DNA from: a virus
Length of the DNA stretch: 49,951 nt
Direction: 5' to 3' (one strand)
IMG/VR virus record: IMGVR_UViG_3300021403_000003
Span: 1 to 49,951 of that record
Shown here: piece by piece, positions 7,569 to 13,377 of the stretch
Numbering within the stretch: position 1 is the stretch's first letter
Layout of the letters: every line of letters starts with the position of its first letter
Translations under genes and position numbers: made by a program
The notes under the pieces: model-generated
What the model saw: the letters and a program-made list of their open reading frames with translations, nothing else
What the model was told of the DNA's origin: nothing
Database searches by the model: none

Positions 7569-8009
7569 ATGATTCAGTTGAATAGAAAATCTTGGCATTT
7601 CTGGCTTGCATCCAAATTTGGTGACTATTGTTATAGTGAACCTGAATATCAAAACGTGTGTACATATACACGTTGCTTCCTTAAGGGATTGATTGTATTC
7701 ATAATTTCTACAATTTTGACTGTCTTTATGGGTGCAATATTCCTGGGATTGCCACTTTTTGCCTTGGGTTGGTTGATCGGTTACATGTTTGGATTTTTCT
7801 CACTATTTGATCCAAAAAGTCGATTGGCAGACACAGTCTTTTCTGGATTTTTGTTGTCCCTGATGTGGATTGTTTTTGGTATCATTTTTGGGATTGTGAA
7901 ATTTTGGAAAAATGGTAAGAAATTTGCTGCCGTTAAACAACCATCATTTCTGAAAGTTGCGTATAGGTCTTGGAAGGATAAATATTGTATCAAGGTTGAA
8001 TTTAAGTGA
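7569..8009 (+). CDS. multi-pass membrane protein
   Basis: Protein of 146 aa. At least three hydrophobic segments are visible: about 37-58 (FLKGLIVFIISTILTVFMGAI), 60-80 (GLPLFALGWLIGYMFGFF) and 93-112 (GFLLSLMWIVFGIIFGIV). Both ends are hydrophilic and basic. Family unknown to me. The next gene begins within its stop (GTGA), so the two membrane proteins may work together. A lysis or superinfection-exclusion role is possible but not shown. Confidence 0.7.
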   Translation: MIQLNRKSWHFWLASKFGDYCYSEPEYQNVCTYTRCFLKGLIVFIISTILTVFMGAIFLGLPLFALGWLIGYMFGFFSLFDPKSRLADTVFSGFLLSLMWIVFGIIFGIVKFWKNGKKFAAVKQPSFLKVAYRSWKDKYCIKVEFK

Positions 8010-8299
8010 TTTCACTGTTTGATTTGATGAATGGATGTTTTGAAGGGTATGGTGCCTTCGGAGCTTGGTTAAACGTTATCAAGCTTCGAAAAGATAGAGA
8101 AATCAAGGGAATAGTTTGGCAATTGATGATAGGATGGTGGGCTTGGGGAATTTTCAACCTTTTCTATTACCCACATCTCGATCAGTGGTTTTCATTTAGT
8201 GCAGGTTGTGTGTTGGTTACAGGTAATGCAGCTTGGTTGATTACATGGCTAAAGATTCTGAAGATACGCGCACGTAGCTTAAATGTGAAGAGCGGCTGA
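8006..8299 (+). CDS. small membrane protein, C-terminus overlaps a tRNA
   Basis: Protein of 97 aa from a GTG start. It contains 'YGAFGAWLNVIKLRKDREIKG', then two to three transmembrane stretches with the pattern 'WWAWGIFNLFYYPHLDQWFSF', which I recognise as a conserved phage membrane-protein family of unknown function (PQ-loop-like layout). The last 11 codons (RARSLNVKSG plus stop) lie inside the candidate tRNA at 8268-8341; this tail is probably a by-product of the overlap. Confidence 0.7.
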   Translation: MISLFDLMNGCFEGYGAFGAWLNVIKLRKDREIKGIVWQLMIGWWAWGIFNLFYYPHLDQWFSFSAGCVLVTGNAAWLITWLKILKIRARSLNVKSG

Positions 8300-8341
8300 C
8301 TCTAAATCGGCGAGATGTGGGCACTCAATCCATCGTGCGCT
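8268..8341 (+). tRNA. candidate amber-reading tRNA, anticodon CTA
   Basis: A full cloverleaf can be drawn. Acceptor stem GCGCACG (8268-8274) pairs perfectly with CGTGCGC (8334-8340). D stem GCTT/GAGC encloses a 9-base loop starting with A14. Anticodon stem GCTGA/TCGGC has one T-G pair and loop CTCTAAA (8300-8306), giving U33, anticodon CTA (8302-8304) and A37. There is a 5-base variable region, and T stem GTGGG/TCCAT has two G-T pairs. Weak points: the T loop CACTCAA does not match TTCRANT, G19 is missing, and no CCA is encoded (TTCA follows). The anticodon would read UAG. It could also be a decayed tRNA. Confidence 0.55.
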
Positions 8342-9359: not shown

Positions 9360-9605
9360 TTGTGGAAGTTCTTTGGACGCAAACCTGAAAAACCTTCTGG
9401 GAAATTTCAGTATCTTGGTCATTCTGTTCAAGCAAATAAGATTGATCTTTGGGTGAAATTTCCTGATGGTTCTACAGATTTGTTCCGTATTCCACTTGAA
9501 AAAGGTCTACTTGATCAATTTGAGATTGCGAAACAAGCAGAAAGACAAGGTATTAGAGTTATTGGTGAATTTATTGATGCCCAACTGCGGTTGGGAATTA
9601 TATAG
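9360..9605 (+). CDS. hypothetical 81-aa protein
   Basis: Starts at TTG 9360, right after the barrel gene's stop. Residues 15-55 form a likely small beta fold (FQYLGHSVQANKIDLWVKF) followed by helices. Family not recognised. It ends in TAG; the frame beyond TAG leads without another stop into the start codon of the next gene (9615), so amber read-through would fuse the two. Confidence 0.55.
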   Translation: MWKFFGRKPEKPSGKFQYLGHSVQANKIDLWVKFPDGSTDLFRIPLEKGLLDQFEIAKQAERQGIRVIGEFIDAQLRLGII

Positions 9606-9614
9606 GAGATTGAA

Positions 9615-10007
9615 ATGAAATTGTTACCATGGGTTACAGCTCTATTTTTGACGACAGCATTTGCTCAATCACAGAGTGATGAGCCACCAACAAGTCCGAT
9701 TCAAGCACAAATCTTGGGAAAAATTTTGTCAGGTAAAAAGATTGAATCAGATCCAGCACATAAAGTGCCAAATCAAGACGATCAACCTTTGACAGCTGTG
9801 ATTGTTACACAATGCAATCAAGTTGTTGCTGTATATTTCACAATGTCAAGTGGGAAATTGCTTCGTTTTGGAAAGGAAGCAGGAGTATCAGCCGAAACCC
9901 TTGTTGATTTGGCCTACAAGTCAGCTAAGTACAGTGAAAGAATTGAAGTTTCCTGTAATGGACTTGGTGAAACAGCCAGAGAACCACATTCCAGAAATGA
10001 CACATGA
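9615..10007 (+). CDS. exported hypothetical protein
   Basis: Protein of 130 aa preceded by GGAGATTGAA. It has a clear signal peptide (MKLLPWVTALFLTTAFAQS, cleavage after about residue 17), then a Pro/Gln-rich stretch and a domain from about 55 with 'TAVIVTQCNQVVAVYFTM' and a second Cys near 118, possibly a disulphide. Likely periplasmic. No family recognised; located with the barrel gene among envelope-directed genes. Confidence 0.65.
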   Translation: MKLLPWVTALFLTTAFAQSQSDEPPTSPIQAQILGKILSGKKIESDPAHKVPNQDDQPLTAVIVTQCNQVVAVYFTMSSGKLLRFGKEAGVSAETLVDLAYKSAKYSERIEVSCNGLGETAREPHSRNDT

Positions 10008-10135: not shown

Positions 10136-10852
10136 ATGTTGGATTATAAGAAAGTTTGGTCTCACTTTCGTGTAGAAGGAACAGTGACACCATCACATGT
10201 TGTTGAGTTTTGTATCGTCAAGGCTGTATATGCATCTCGAGGAAATGAAAAGAAAGCCGAGAAGCTTCTCATTCAGTATCTATCAAAGGCTTTCACGCCC
10301 ATCACCCGTAAAAATAGGTTGGAAAATGGAGAGCATGAGTATTCATGCTTACAAAGAGCTATTCAAGGTATAAACAAATCATATGTTCTTGGAGTGCCAT
10401 CAATAGCACTCGAAAATTATGAGCTTCTTTATCATAACCTTCTTGATCATTTGACGTATCGTAAAGTTGCAGAATACAGTAAACGTAAGTACATGTATTT
10501 CTTTGTTCGTCAAGATATACCTAGAGAATATCAATTGGTTCAAACTGCTCATGTTGCATTGGTGAATGGTTGGCAAATCGCATTGGATAAAAGTATGGAT
10601 CCTGTTGATCCAAACAATATCTATTTCACTGTTGTTGGTGTACCTAATCTTGCTGCATTGAAGAAAGTAAGAGAAGATTTGCGTCATTTAGAAATTACTC
10701 ATAGTTTGTTTATAGAGCCTGATTTAGGAGATGAAGCAACATCTATTGCAACGTATCCTATCAAGGTTAATGAAAGAGGAAGACTTTTGACTTACAAGTT
10801 ATTGAGTTTTACTCTTACTGAGTTAGACCCTAAGATAGATCAAGTGGCCTAA
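10136..10852 (+). CDS. PTH2-like (peptidyl-tRNA hydrolase 2 fold) protein
   Basis: Protein of 238 aa from ATG 10136, preceded by AAGGAG; the frame is open 81 bases further upstream but without that site. The N-terminal 115 aa are helical and unfamiliar. From about 118 the pattern 'YMYFFVRQDIPREYQLVQTAHVALVNG', 'YFTVVGVPNLAALKKVREDL', 'EITHSLFIEPDLGDEATSIA' and 'TYPI' follows the Pth2 fold. That fold has a first strand with 'R.D...', a 'Q.AHA' helix, a 'V..V.....L' strand and a final 'EPD....T.IA' segment. Such proteins cleave or bind peptidyl-tRNA. Its TAA forms part of a TAAATA box, and the tmRNA gene follows. Confidence 0.65.
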   Translation: MLDYKKVWSHFRVEGTVTPSHVVEFCIVKAVYASRGNEKKAEKLLIQYLSKAFTPITRKNRLENGEHEYSCLQRAIQGINKSYVLGVPSIALENYELLYHNLLDHLTYRKVAEYSKRKYMYFFVRQDIPREYQLVQTAHVALVNGWQIALDKSMDPVDPNNIYFTVVGVPNLAALKKVREDLRHLEITHSLFIEPDLGDEATSIATYPIKVNERGRLLTYKLLSFTLTELDPKIDQVA

Positions 10853-10855
10853 ATA
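10850..10855 (+). promoter_or_regulatory. TAAATA late-promoter-like box before the tmRNA
   Basis: CCTAAATAGGTCAC; the TAA is the stop codon of the PTH2-like gene. The same extended sequence, TAAATAGGTCAC, occurs at 35961 before a structural gene. It would start a transcript near 10862, just ahead of the tmRNA acceptor piece. Confidence 0.55.
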
Positions 10856-10927
10856 GGTCACGAAATGGTAGTAAACTGTTGATTAAAGGTGTTCAAGACG
10901 CGGGTGCAATTCCCGCCAGGTCCACCA

Positions 10928-11003
10928 ACAGCACACTTGGCCAGAGGTCATGACTGGTCGTTTCTTGATGATGCCGAAAGGCTAACTGGAGTGTGCTTCT
11001 GAT
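10928..11003 (+). other. tmRNA intervening segment removed on maturation
   Basis: The 76 bases between the encoded CCA and the mature 5' end GGGCCTG. AGCACACT (10930-10937) pairs exactly with AGTGTGCT (10990-10997), bringing the two processing sites together. In known permuted tmRNAs this segment is cut out by tRNA-processing nucleases, leaving two RNA pieces. Confidence 0.8.
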
Positions 11004-11087
11004 GGGCCTGACTAGCTTCGATTGGGCAAGTAATAACCCAATAGCTACCGGATTGGTGACTGCCCTAAGCAGCACAAAACGTTAAAT

Positions 11088-11147
11088 GCAAACGATACTG
11101 CATTCGATGAAGATGAAGGCTTTGTAGAGCTCGCTCTCGCTGCCTGA
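11088..11147 (+). other. tmRNA proteolysis-tag reading frame
   Basis: From the resume codon GCA (11088) the frame reads ANDTAFDEDEGFVELALAA and stops at TGA 11145-11147. AND at the start and LALAA at the end are hallmarks of bacterial tags, the end being the ClpXP/ClpAP signal. The middle is unusually acidic (DEDE) and the tag is rather long at 19 encoded residues. The bases TTAAATGCAAACGA around the resume codon resemble bacterial tmRNAs. Confidence 0.9.
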
Positions 11148-11217
11148 TTCTGAATCTGGGGTTTTGGTGGCTGTCCTTATCACCCAATCAGCCACCACTT
11201 ATATCATGAGGAAGTTA

Positions 11218-11445
11218 ATGGCTACAAGTGCTGATAAAGATCAATTTTCAATCATGATTGAAACAAGGGCCATCAATGATAAATGTAGTCATATTGATGC
11301 CATAATTTCTCATTGTGAGGAAACTGGGTTAGAAATTGAAGTAGTAAAATCTCTTATCAATATTCAACTAAAAAAGAAGATCGAAGCAGAAGCTCGTACC
11401 TTGAGGATGATCAAGGGAGGAAATGCTTCGAGGTTGCCAGTATGA
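11218..11445 (+). CDS. gp33-like late-transcription coactivator
   Basis: Protein of 75 aa. ATG 11218 is chosen because GAGGAAG stands just upstream; ATG 11206 and a GTG at 11164 inside the tmRNA 3' hairpin are also in frame. The pattern 'CSHIDAIISHCEETGLEIEVV' followed by 'KSLINIQLKKKIEAEARTL' and a C-terminal 'ASRLPV' matches the short gp33-type late promoter coactivators of T4-like phages outside the enterics (helical core and a hydrophobic C-terminal clamp-binding tail). It would link the sliding clamp to RNA polymerase at TAAATA late promoters. Confidence 0.65.
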   Translation: MATSADKDQFSIMIETRAINDKCSHIDAIISHCEETGLEIEVVKSLINIQLKKKIEAEARTLRMIKGGNASRLPV

Positions 11446-11783
11446 TTGAATTTGAACCAGAAAATCCTTTCAAAACTACATATGGCTTTGAAAGAAGACA
11501 AAATCCGAGGACAAGAGCAAATCTCAACGTTTATTTGGTCACAACTGATCAAAAAAAGAATGAAAGAAAGATAATCAAATTTCAGTCAATAAATATCAGT
11601 CGTTCTGGATTGCTGATTGATAGTGGTGATTTTCCATTCAGAAAGAACTCTTTTGTTGATTTGGCGTTTATGGCACCAATACAAGAAAATGTAAGTCGTT
11701 TGTATTACATGGATGCTTTTGTTCAACATACTGGCAATGGTAAGACAGGTTTCTCGATGACCAAGAAAGGTCCGAAGCCTTGA
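11442..11783 (+). CDS. PilZ-domain protein (c-di-GMP binding motifs)
   Basis: Protein of 113 aa consisting of one PilZ domain. The two c-di-GMP signature motifs are present: R19-QNP-R23 (RxxxR) in 'FERRQNPRTRANL', and N51-I-S-R-S-G56 ([D/N]xSxxG) in 'NISRSGLLID'. The rest fits the PilZ barrel, with a late strand near 'YMDAFVQHTG'. Bacterial PilZ proteins sense c-di-GMP and control motility, exopolysaccharide or transcription. It is embedded in a phage replication operon (ATGA overlap upstream, TTGA overlap downstream) and not beside host-like genes. Its phage role is unknown; it may read or sequester host c-di-GMP. Confidence 0.82.
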   Translation: MIEFEPENPFKTTYGFERRQNPRTRANLNVYLVTTDQKKNERKIIKFQSINISRSGLLIDSGDFPFRKNSFVDLAFMAPIQENVSRLYYMDAFVQHTGNGKTGFSMTKKGPKP

Positions 11784-12406
11784 GAGAAGTTTCTACTCTT
11801 CAAGAAAAAGCAGGTGGATTTGTTGCTTGGAAATTATTCACAGCTGTAAGAATCCACTATATGAGTGATTCTTATGACTTCTTCAAGTATAATGGTGAAA
11901 CTAAAGCAGCAGCTTCTTGGGAAGTTTTCAAGAATCATCGAGACAAATACAGTTTTGTGAAACTTGGTAGGATGTATGTCAGGGAGGAAATGATCTATTT
12001 CCTTGGAATAAATTTTTATCATAAACCAAACCTTTGGATTCATGATTTGTTCTTTGATGAAGCTATCCAAATTTATAAATCATGGAAAGAACGACAAATA
12101 CAAAACAATCGATTGCAAGAACTTACAAAGCTTGTATCAAGTGGGTTTAAGGAACTGATTGCAATCCATAAAGAGGAGCACCCAAAACTTTTGGGAAGGA
12201 TGTTGGTGAATGATGTTCACCATGATATCATTTGTTTGGTTGATAAATCAGTGAAATTTACAGATGAATGGTTGAATGCATATCCAACTGATCCAATCGT
12301 TCATGGTACAGTTAACAGATTAAAGAAATATAGCAGATTTGTTCAGAACATTATACATTACGATACAACAGCATACGACAAGATAATTGAGGAGTATTAT
12401 AAATGA
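11780..12406 (+). CDS. 59: gp59-type DNA helicase loader
   Basis: Protein of 208 aa (T4 gp59 has 217). The N-terminal signature 'WKLFTAVRIHYMSDSYDFFKYNG' and 'FKNHRDKYSFVKLGRMY' correspond to T4 'KLYLMIKQHMNGKYDVIKYN' and 'KRRDKYFFQKLSEKY'. A central 'PNLWIHDL' block follows, then a helical C-terminal half. In T4 it loads the gp41 helicase onto gp32-coated forked DNA. Start TTG 11780 overlaps the previous stop; no ATG is available before the conserved region. It lies two genes before gp32, as expected for functionally linked genes. Confidence 0.85.
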   Translation: MREVSTLQEKAGGFVAWKLFTAVRIHYMSDSYDFFKYNGETKAAASWEVFKNHRDKYSFVKLGRMYVREEMIYFLGINFYHKPNLWIHDLFFDEAIQIYKSWKERQIQNNRLQELTKLVSSGFKELIAIHKEEHPKLLGRMLVNDVHHDIICLVDKSVKFTDEWLNAYPTDPIVHGTVNRLKKYSRFVQNIIHYDTTAYDKIIEEYYK

Positions 12407-13377
12407 CAAGAGTATCACCAGCTAAGTCAAGACCAAGATCGTCTTTGTTTAATAGTGGAAGTAATGCAGCAGATGGTTATGCAGATGATCATTCAGTCGA
12501 AAATGATGTTTTGTTTGGTGATCAACGTATGTGGTCTGTTTCTGGTGATAGTTATTATGCTTGTGATAAAGCTGAAGATTCTTTGCCAGCAGGTCAGTAT
12601 CTACCTGTATACAGCGAACAAAGAGGTATCTATGTTGTCAAAAAGCAAGTGAATTTGGATGATTTGCTTGTCCTCCCTGATAACAAAACAACTTATGTAT
12701 TAGACGCAATTAATCATTTTTGGTCCAAGCAGGATAAATTCCGTCAACATGGATTCCTTTGGAAGCGTGGTATGCTTTTGTGGGGTCCTCCTGGTTCAGG
12801 AAAAACTAGCTGTATTCAACAATTGTCCAAACAAATTATCGACAAGGGTGGCATTTCTGTTTACTGTACTGTTCCTAACGTGACAGCTGAAGCACTCCGT
12901 ATTATTCGCCGCATTGAACCAACACGTCCAATTGTGGTGATGATTGAGGATATCGATGCTGTTATTTCACGTCATGGTGAACCTGATTTATTGGCATTAT
13001 TGGATGGTGAACTTCAGATTGACAATGTTGTGTATATTGCAACAACCAATTATCCAGAGGAATTAGATCCTCGTTTTGTTCAACGTCCATCTCGTTTTGA
13101 TGAAGTTATCTGTATTGATATGCCAAGCAAAGAAGCACGTAAGACTTACTTGGCTGCAAAGAATCCACGATTGATTGTTAATCCAGAAGAATTGGATCGT
13201 TGGGTTGAATTGACTGAAGGTTTCTCTATAGCAGCAATGAAGGAAGTTGTCGTTGCCGTTGAGTGTTTGGATCGTACAGTTGAATCGACAGTGGAACGTA
13301 TTAAAGAAGTGATGGCCAAGAGACCAACTTCTGAAGATGCACAAAATCCTTTCAAAAAGAAAGTTGGATTTAGCTGA
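12403..13377 (+). CDS. AAA+ ATPase (BCS1-like core)
   Basis: Protein of 324 aa. Residues 1-80 are low-complexity and likely flexible. The AAA+ core follows: Walker A GPPGSGKT at 128-135, Walker B VVMIEDID at 178-185, sensor-1 'IATTNYPE', and a 'DPRFVQRPSRFD' arginine-finger/second-region-of-homology block. The order is that of BCS1/FtsH-type AAA proteins and not of clamp loaders. It sits between gp59 and gp32, where T4 has no such gene, so a role in replication-complex or protein remodelling is plausible. ATGA overlap with gp59. Confidence 0.85.
   Translation: MTRVSPAKSRPRSSLFNSGSNAADGYADDHSVENDVLFGDQRMWSVSGDSYYACDKAEDSLPAGQYLPVYSEQRGIYVVKKQVNLDDLLVLPDNKTTYVLDAINHFWSKQDKFRQHGFLWKRGMLLWGPPGSGKTSCIQQLSKQIIDKGGISVYCTVPNVTAEALRIIRRIEPTRPIVVMIEDIDAVISRHGEPDLLALLDGELQIDNVVYIATTNYPEELDPRFVQRPSRFDEVICIDMPSKEARKTYLAAKNPRLIVNPEELDRWVELTEGFSIAAMKEVVVAVECLDRTVESTVERIKEVMAKRPTSEDAQNPFKKKVGFS

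Follow-up and report, generated by a model that had tools for sequence, protein, structure and literature searches.

Evidence for a circularly permuted, two-piece tmRNA gene of the beta type upstream of gp33 in a T4-like phage

tmRNA is an RNA that releases ribosomes which have stalled and marks the incomplete protein for destruction. Several forms of its gene have been described in phages. Bacillus phage G and mycobacteriophages such as Bxz1 carry tmRNA genes too, but these are one-piece and not permuted as listed (PMC4131195). Two-piece tmRNAs, on the other hand, were counted by Buchholz et al. (2022), who found 53 of them among 18,146 phage genomes (PMC9004378) and described one adjacent to gp33 in the phage Melnitz (PMC9004378). 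Moreover, a tmRNA database of 2025 holds 79 unique phage tmRNA sequences (PMC11915505).

Here, we analysed a locus in bases 1-49951 (hereafter the window, 49,951 nucleotides) of the 176,865-base virus record IMGVR_UViG_3300021403_000003. Using Infernal, we found that the permuted tmRNA model of Rfam, RF04321, matches positions 10867-11147 with 125.3 bits against a cut-off of 47 (E 3.5e-24), the match spanning model positions 1-213 of 213. The beta_tmRNA model RF01850 matches positions 10815-11201 with 93.3 bits against a cut-off of 84 (E 4.6e-27); it outscored the other models of the same clan, which were dropped as lower-scoring overlaps. Both models thus recognise what a sequence-only reading had taken for a tmRNA. 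ARAGORN, run over the window, made no tmRNA call at the locus and no call anywhere, which could suggest that the resemblance is fortuitous or that the locus is what remains of a tRNA; given the E values obtained with two models, the covariation and the conserved synteny described below, the probability of either is negligible. These data support reading the locus as a complete and structurally intact tmRNA gene of the beta type, encoded by the phage and circularly permuted into two pieces.

All features of the locus lie on the plus strand. The acceptor piece (approximately 10867-10927), delimited by the RF04321 and RF01850 alignments and by covariation, has an approximate mature 5' end and comprises the 5' strands of P2 (10867-10871) and P2a (10890-10896), the T arm (10900-10916, T stem GCGGG/CCCGC) and the acceptor 3' strand CAGGUCC (10917-10923), which is followed by an encoded ACCA (10924-10927). 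Next comes a spacer of 76 nt (10928-11003), which would presumably be cut out of the precursor and is closed by an 8-bp inverted repeat, AGCACACT at 10930-10937 and AGTGTGCT at 10990-10997. The coding piece (11004-11201, aligned by RF04321 to 11147 and by RF01850 to 11201, its mature 3' end being approximate) starts with the acceptor 5' strand GGGCCUG (11004-11010) and contains the D-loop UUCGA (11017-11021) and the 3' strands of P2a (11022-11028) and P2 (11045-11049). The tag reading frame, placed by the sequence and the RF04321 alignment, runs from the resume codon GCA to TGA (11088-11147) and reads ANDTAFDEDEGFVELALAA. A 3' terminal hairpin, UGGUGGCUG / CAGCCACCA (11165-11197), was located from the sequence and the RF01850 alignment.

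The CCA-bearing acceptor piece therefore stands upstream of the coding piece, which is the permuted order, and the acceptor stem between the two pieces forms 7 of 7 pairs, G3-U70 included. The sequence-only reading had described this order with the CCA ending at 10927, the 76-base joining segment and its inverted repeat, the perfect acceptor stem and the tag; all of these hold, and its coordinates were right almost to the base. The tag is a 19-residue, acidic, open frame ending in the degradation signal ALAA. The T loop, UGCAAUU, is non-standard when compared with UUCRANU, and the T loops of relatives read UGCRAUU or are more divergent. The precursor folded better than shuffled sequences (z -3.2), fold energy being weak evidence, and the stability of the spacer on its own was not unusual.

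To describe the conservation of the locus, relatives were gathered through gp32 and gp33 and then scanned with RF04321, which gave a copy over the cut-off in 26 of 50 records and in 7 of 46, many of the negatives being short fragments. Moreover, at least 119 viral contigs matched a DNA pattern describing the acceptor piece of the beta type, and 80 of them were analysed. The partner strand paired at 7 of 7 positions in all but three of these 80 contigs, a result that is partly circular as the partner-strand search demanded full pairing; the three exceptions end within 175 bases. As an independent check, a UUCGA/CUCGA motif was found 13-15 bases from the partner-strand start in 54 of 54 distinct copies.

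Pairing in the acceptor and T stems reaches 100% across the 54 distinct phage copies of the beta type, and five of the pairs show two-sided changes; shuffled partners pair at 86.7% and 78.0%, respectively, in shuffles that ignore kinship among the sequences. G3-U70 is invariant (54/54). P2a is 99.7% paired, which taken alone is weaker evidence because shuffles already average 96.5%; in the subgroup of the window, two of its pairs are fully compensated. The sequence-only reading had staked its proposal in advance on a match to a tmRNA model and on acceptor-stem pairing in related genomes; the model matches are strong, and the pairing holds across relatives in every distinct copy. The comparison indicates that tmRNA pairing is under selection in the phage relatives. 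In the tag and stem set, the extraction script mis-registered the stem of L127 and the tag of L137.

This conservation bears on whether the gene is a recently captured host ssrA or a decaying copy, functionless in infection. Phages acquire host genes, gene exchange was suggested by Buchholz et al. as the origin of the Melnitz copy (PMC9004378), and the tag ANDTAFDEDEGFVELALAA, sought in viral contigs, was absent from all others and hence private to this phage, all of which would suit a capture. Against it, the stems are kept by two-sided changes across many phage lineages and the neighbourhood is conserved. The acceptor-piece pattern gave zero matches in bacterial genomes taken at one per species, and neither this pattern nor its P2a variant revealed a two-piece bacterial gene in that set, which makes it unlikely that the gene was captured recently from a host among those sampled. 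Overall, we regard a captured or decaying copy as improbable. Three clostridial contigs matching the P2a-variant pattern were set aside, as they have no permuted partner. Among 50,697 phage records, a blastn search with the locus found nothing at 1e-5 and, at a looser limit, short tRNA-domain pieces only; plasmids gave one marginal piece only.

The tags of most relatives begin AND- or ANE-like and end in LAA or IAA, many phage relatives having 10-residue tags that resemble ANDERFALAA. These tags matter for a further alternative, in which the tRNA-like part would serve as a decoy that ties up host SmpB or disturbs host trans-translation. The gene of mycobacteriophage DS6A has little beyond the tRNA-like domain, unlike the window copy, and this tRNA-like-domain-only tmRNA resembles a tmRNA-inhibiting molecule (PMC4131195). 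A decoy, however, needs no tag frame, and the frame with its hydrophobic LAA-type ending is kept in nearly all relatives whose tag is readable; we thus hold a decoy to be quite improbable.

Some relatives depart from the common form. Ten loci (L139, L149, L186, L190, L215, L225, L227, L228, L275 and L276) have the tag ANDNSYRMVA, which ends in MVA rather than in the usual LAA and is possibly degraded less well. In L108 (NC_015287.1 21008-21227), L126 and L193, the script placed the two pieces only 2-5 nt apart, compared with 29-247 nt elsewhere, and these copies may be processed differently. L108 is Synechococcus phage S-SSM7, whose copy is also without an encoded CCA.

The nearest relative is one locus present in two records (L151, IMGVR_UViG_3300025928_000054, and L217, 3300005436_000140). 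It shares with the window the acceptor, a similar tag (ANVSAFEEVELALAA), a spacer of 75 nt, and the order of upstream gene, gp33, PilZ-like ORF, AAA ATPase and gp32, while it differs in its diverged sequence and in one extra short ORF before gp33. The spacer-closing stem is retained with a different sequence, and the terminal hairpin is retained by compensatory change (GGUGGGUG / CACCCACC).

The gene downstream of the window copy encodes a homologue of gp33, the late-transcription coactivator (11218-11445, plus strand; PF16805 1.6e-16 and phrog_254 5.4e-17 on ORF 11164-11445), its likely ATG start at 11218 having been chosen by eye. Of the 111 tmRNA loci examined, 83 have a gp33 match, and the loci without one mostly have little downstream sequence. 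In 81 of these 83 loci, gp33 follows the tmRNA on the same strand, at a distance of 59 nt to ~5.7 kb past the tag stop; in the other two it lies upstream. Although many of the 111 loci were gathered via gp33 or gp32, the arrangement is the same in the pattern-based set (L138-L217), whose collection did not depend on either gene. Judging from these contigs, the beta-type tmRNA is common in environmental viral contigs and usually located upstream of gp33. Between gp33 and gp32, the window also contains a PilZ-domain ORF (11442-11783, plus strand; PF07238 1.4e-05) and an AAA ATPase (12403-13377, plus strand; PF00004 1.3e-15). A different setting was seen in Stenotrophomonas phage vB_SmaS-DLP_6 (KU682439.2 102838-103059; L105, L277), which has an unannotated permuted tmRNA (136.8 bits) with the tag ANDDSFAPMAIAA and a spacer of 31 nt; this copy occupies a gap next to tRNA genes, away from gp32.

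The sequence-only reading had assigned the DNA to a T4-type phage, in agreement with profile matches that place homologues of gp33, gp59 and gp32 next to the locus. Given these homologues and the more than 30 tRNA genes in the record, the source is, by its gene content, a large T4-like phage. ARAGORN called 31 tRNA genes in a ~8-kb part of stretch L007 (8688-16504, about 158.6-166.5 kb of the record), and one further tRNA gene in L008. A tRNA-like match (Rfam RF00005, 37.7 bits) also occurs in the window at 8268-8341 on the plus strand. With an anticodon loop of CUCUAAA, it has the anticodon CUA and would decode UAG stops; it may be degenerate, as it has no encoded CCA and no ARAGORN call, has an odd T loop and overlaps the ORF 8006-8299. 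TAG terminates 17 of ~213 ORFs in the record, in which no clear case of UAG readthrough was found. Amber readthrough fusing ORFs 9360-9605 and 9615-10007 was considered and rejected, since the second of these comes with a ribosome-binding site of its own, which overlaps the stop.

As for timing, a late-type promoter box, CTAAATA, lies on the plus strand at 10849-10855, where it overlaps the upstream ORF's stop codon and precedes the P2 helix by 11 nt. Of the 29 CTAAATA sites in this phage, 12 are just upstream of ORF starts, against 3.7% expected (~11-fold), while AT-rich control words reach 1.7-6.9%. The enrichment, which the controls do not share, shows CTAAATA to be a genuine signal of this phage. 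The sequence-only reading had spoken of a late-type box of the gene's own: the box is present and enriched, and from this we infer that it drives the tmRNA gene. For the tmRNA of the window, the search for a sigma-70 site gave no good candidate. A sigma-70-like promoter was seen in about one third of the relatives' tmRNA loci, and the Melnitz gene was assigned to an early promoter by its authors, so late timing is not general; the L151/L217 locus, unlike the window, has no TAAATA box in front. At the other end of the gene, the 3' hairpin has no downstream U run and is thus no obvious terminator. With gp33 starting ~20 nt after this hairpin, co-transcription of the tmRNA and gp33 is possible.

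We therefore favour, with a probability of about 0.86, the view that the phage has a functional two-piece tmRNA of the beta type, which would be transcribed late, processed by the host and used in rescuing ribosomes. One precursor would be made, with the CTAAATA box probably directing its transcription in the late phase, and the spacer would be removed by host tRNA-processing enzymes, with RNase P acting at 11004 and a 3'-processing nuclease at the CCA (10927). The acceptor, P2 and P2a helices, whose pairing is supported by covariation, would keep the two pieces joined. As in the rest of the family, host alanyl-tRNA synthetase would charge the RNA with alanine via G3-U70, and host SmpB would bring it to ribosomes that have stalled on broken mRNA; translation would then resume at GCA and add ANDTAFDEDEGFVELALAA, directing the product to ClpXP-type proteases. 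No match to SmpB or SspB was found in the phage record, which may be incomplete, and host factors are thus the likely partners.

The likely benefit would be to keep ribosomes free for virion-protein synthesis while mRNA is being degraded. Host SsrA stays abundant during T4 infection and, as the authors of that work suggest, maintains a supply of available ribosomes (PMC9697503); this fits a benefit from a phage copy, although it also means that T4 manages without one. Late rescue, replacement of host tmRNA and an altered tag, all raised by the sequence-only reading, may each be among its functions. More tentatively, and with the odds somewhat against it, T4-like phages of many hosts might keep their own tmRNA by gp33, some of them, including this one, under late control, and so take over ribosome rescue with their own tag during virion-protein synthesis.

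The usual placement upstream of the late coactivator gene makes the tmRNA a candidate for a routine role in translation takeover. Such genes are overlooked by ARAGORN as run here, and the copy in the published phage DLP_6 is an example without annotation. The sequence-only reading had considered the gene unusual in a T4-type phage; such a phage gene is real but less unusual than supposed, given the published 53 in 18,146 genomes and, whereas the earlier phage two-piece tmRNAs were mainly marine, the beta type in at least 119 viral contigs here.

Among known systems, Methylophilales phage Melnitz EXVC044M and Pelagibacter phage Mosig EXVC030M are also T4-like and carry a permuted tmRNA directly upstream of gp33, with tags that differ from that of the window. 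The Melnitz tmRNA was grouped by its authors with alphaproteobacterial tmRNAs (PMC9004378), whereas the window copy follows the beta model; it was described with an early promoter and a glutamine riboswitch, whereas the window copy has a late-type box and no riboswitch match in the Rfam scan. Compared with the betaproteobacterial tmRNA (RF01850), the window copy exceeds the curated cut-off over the full model length, but scores below its RF04321 match and has compensatory A-U pairs in P2a, the UGCAAUU T loop and a 19-residue acidic tag. Phage two-piece tmRNAs are thus already published, and the copy in the window is a new, diverged and well-supported example.
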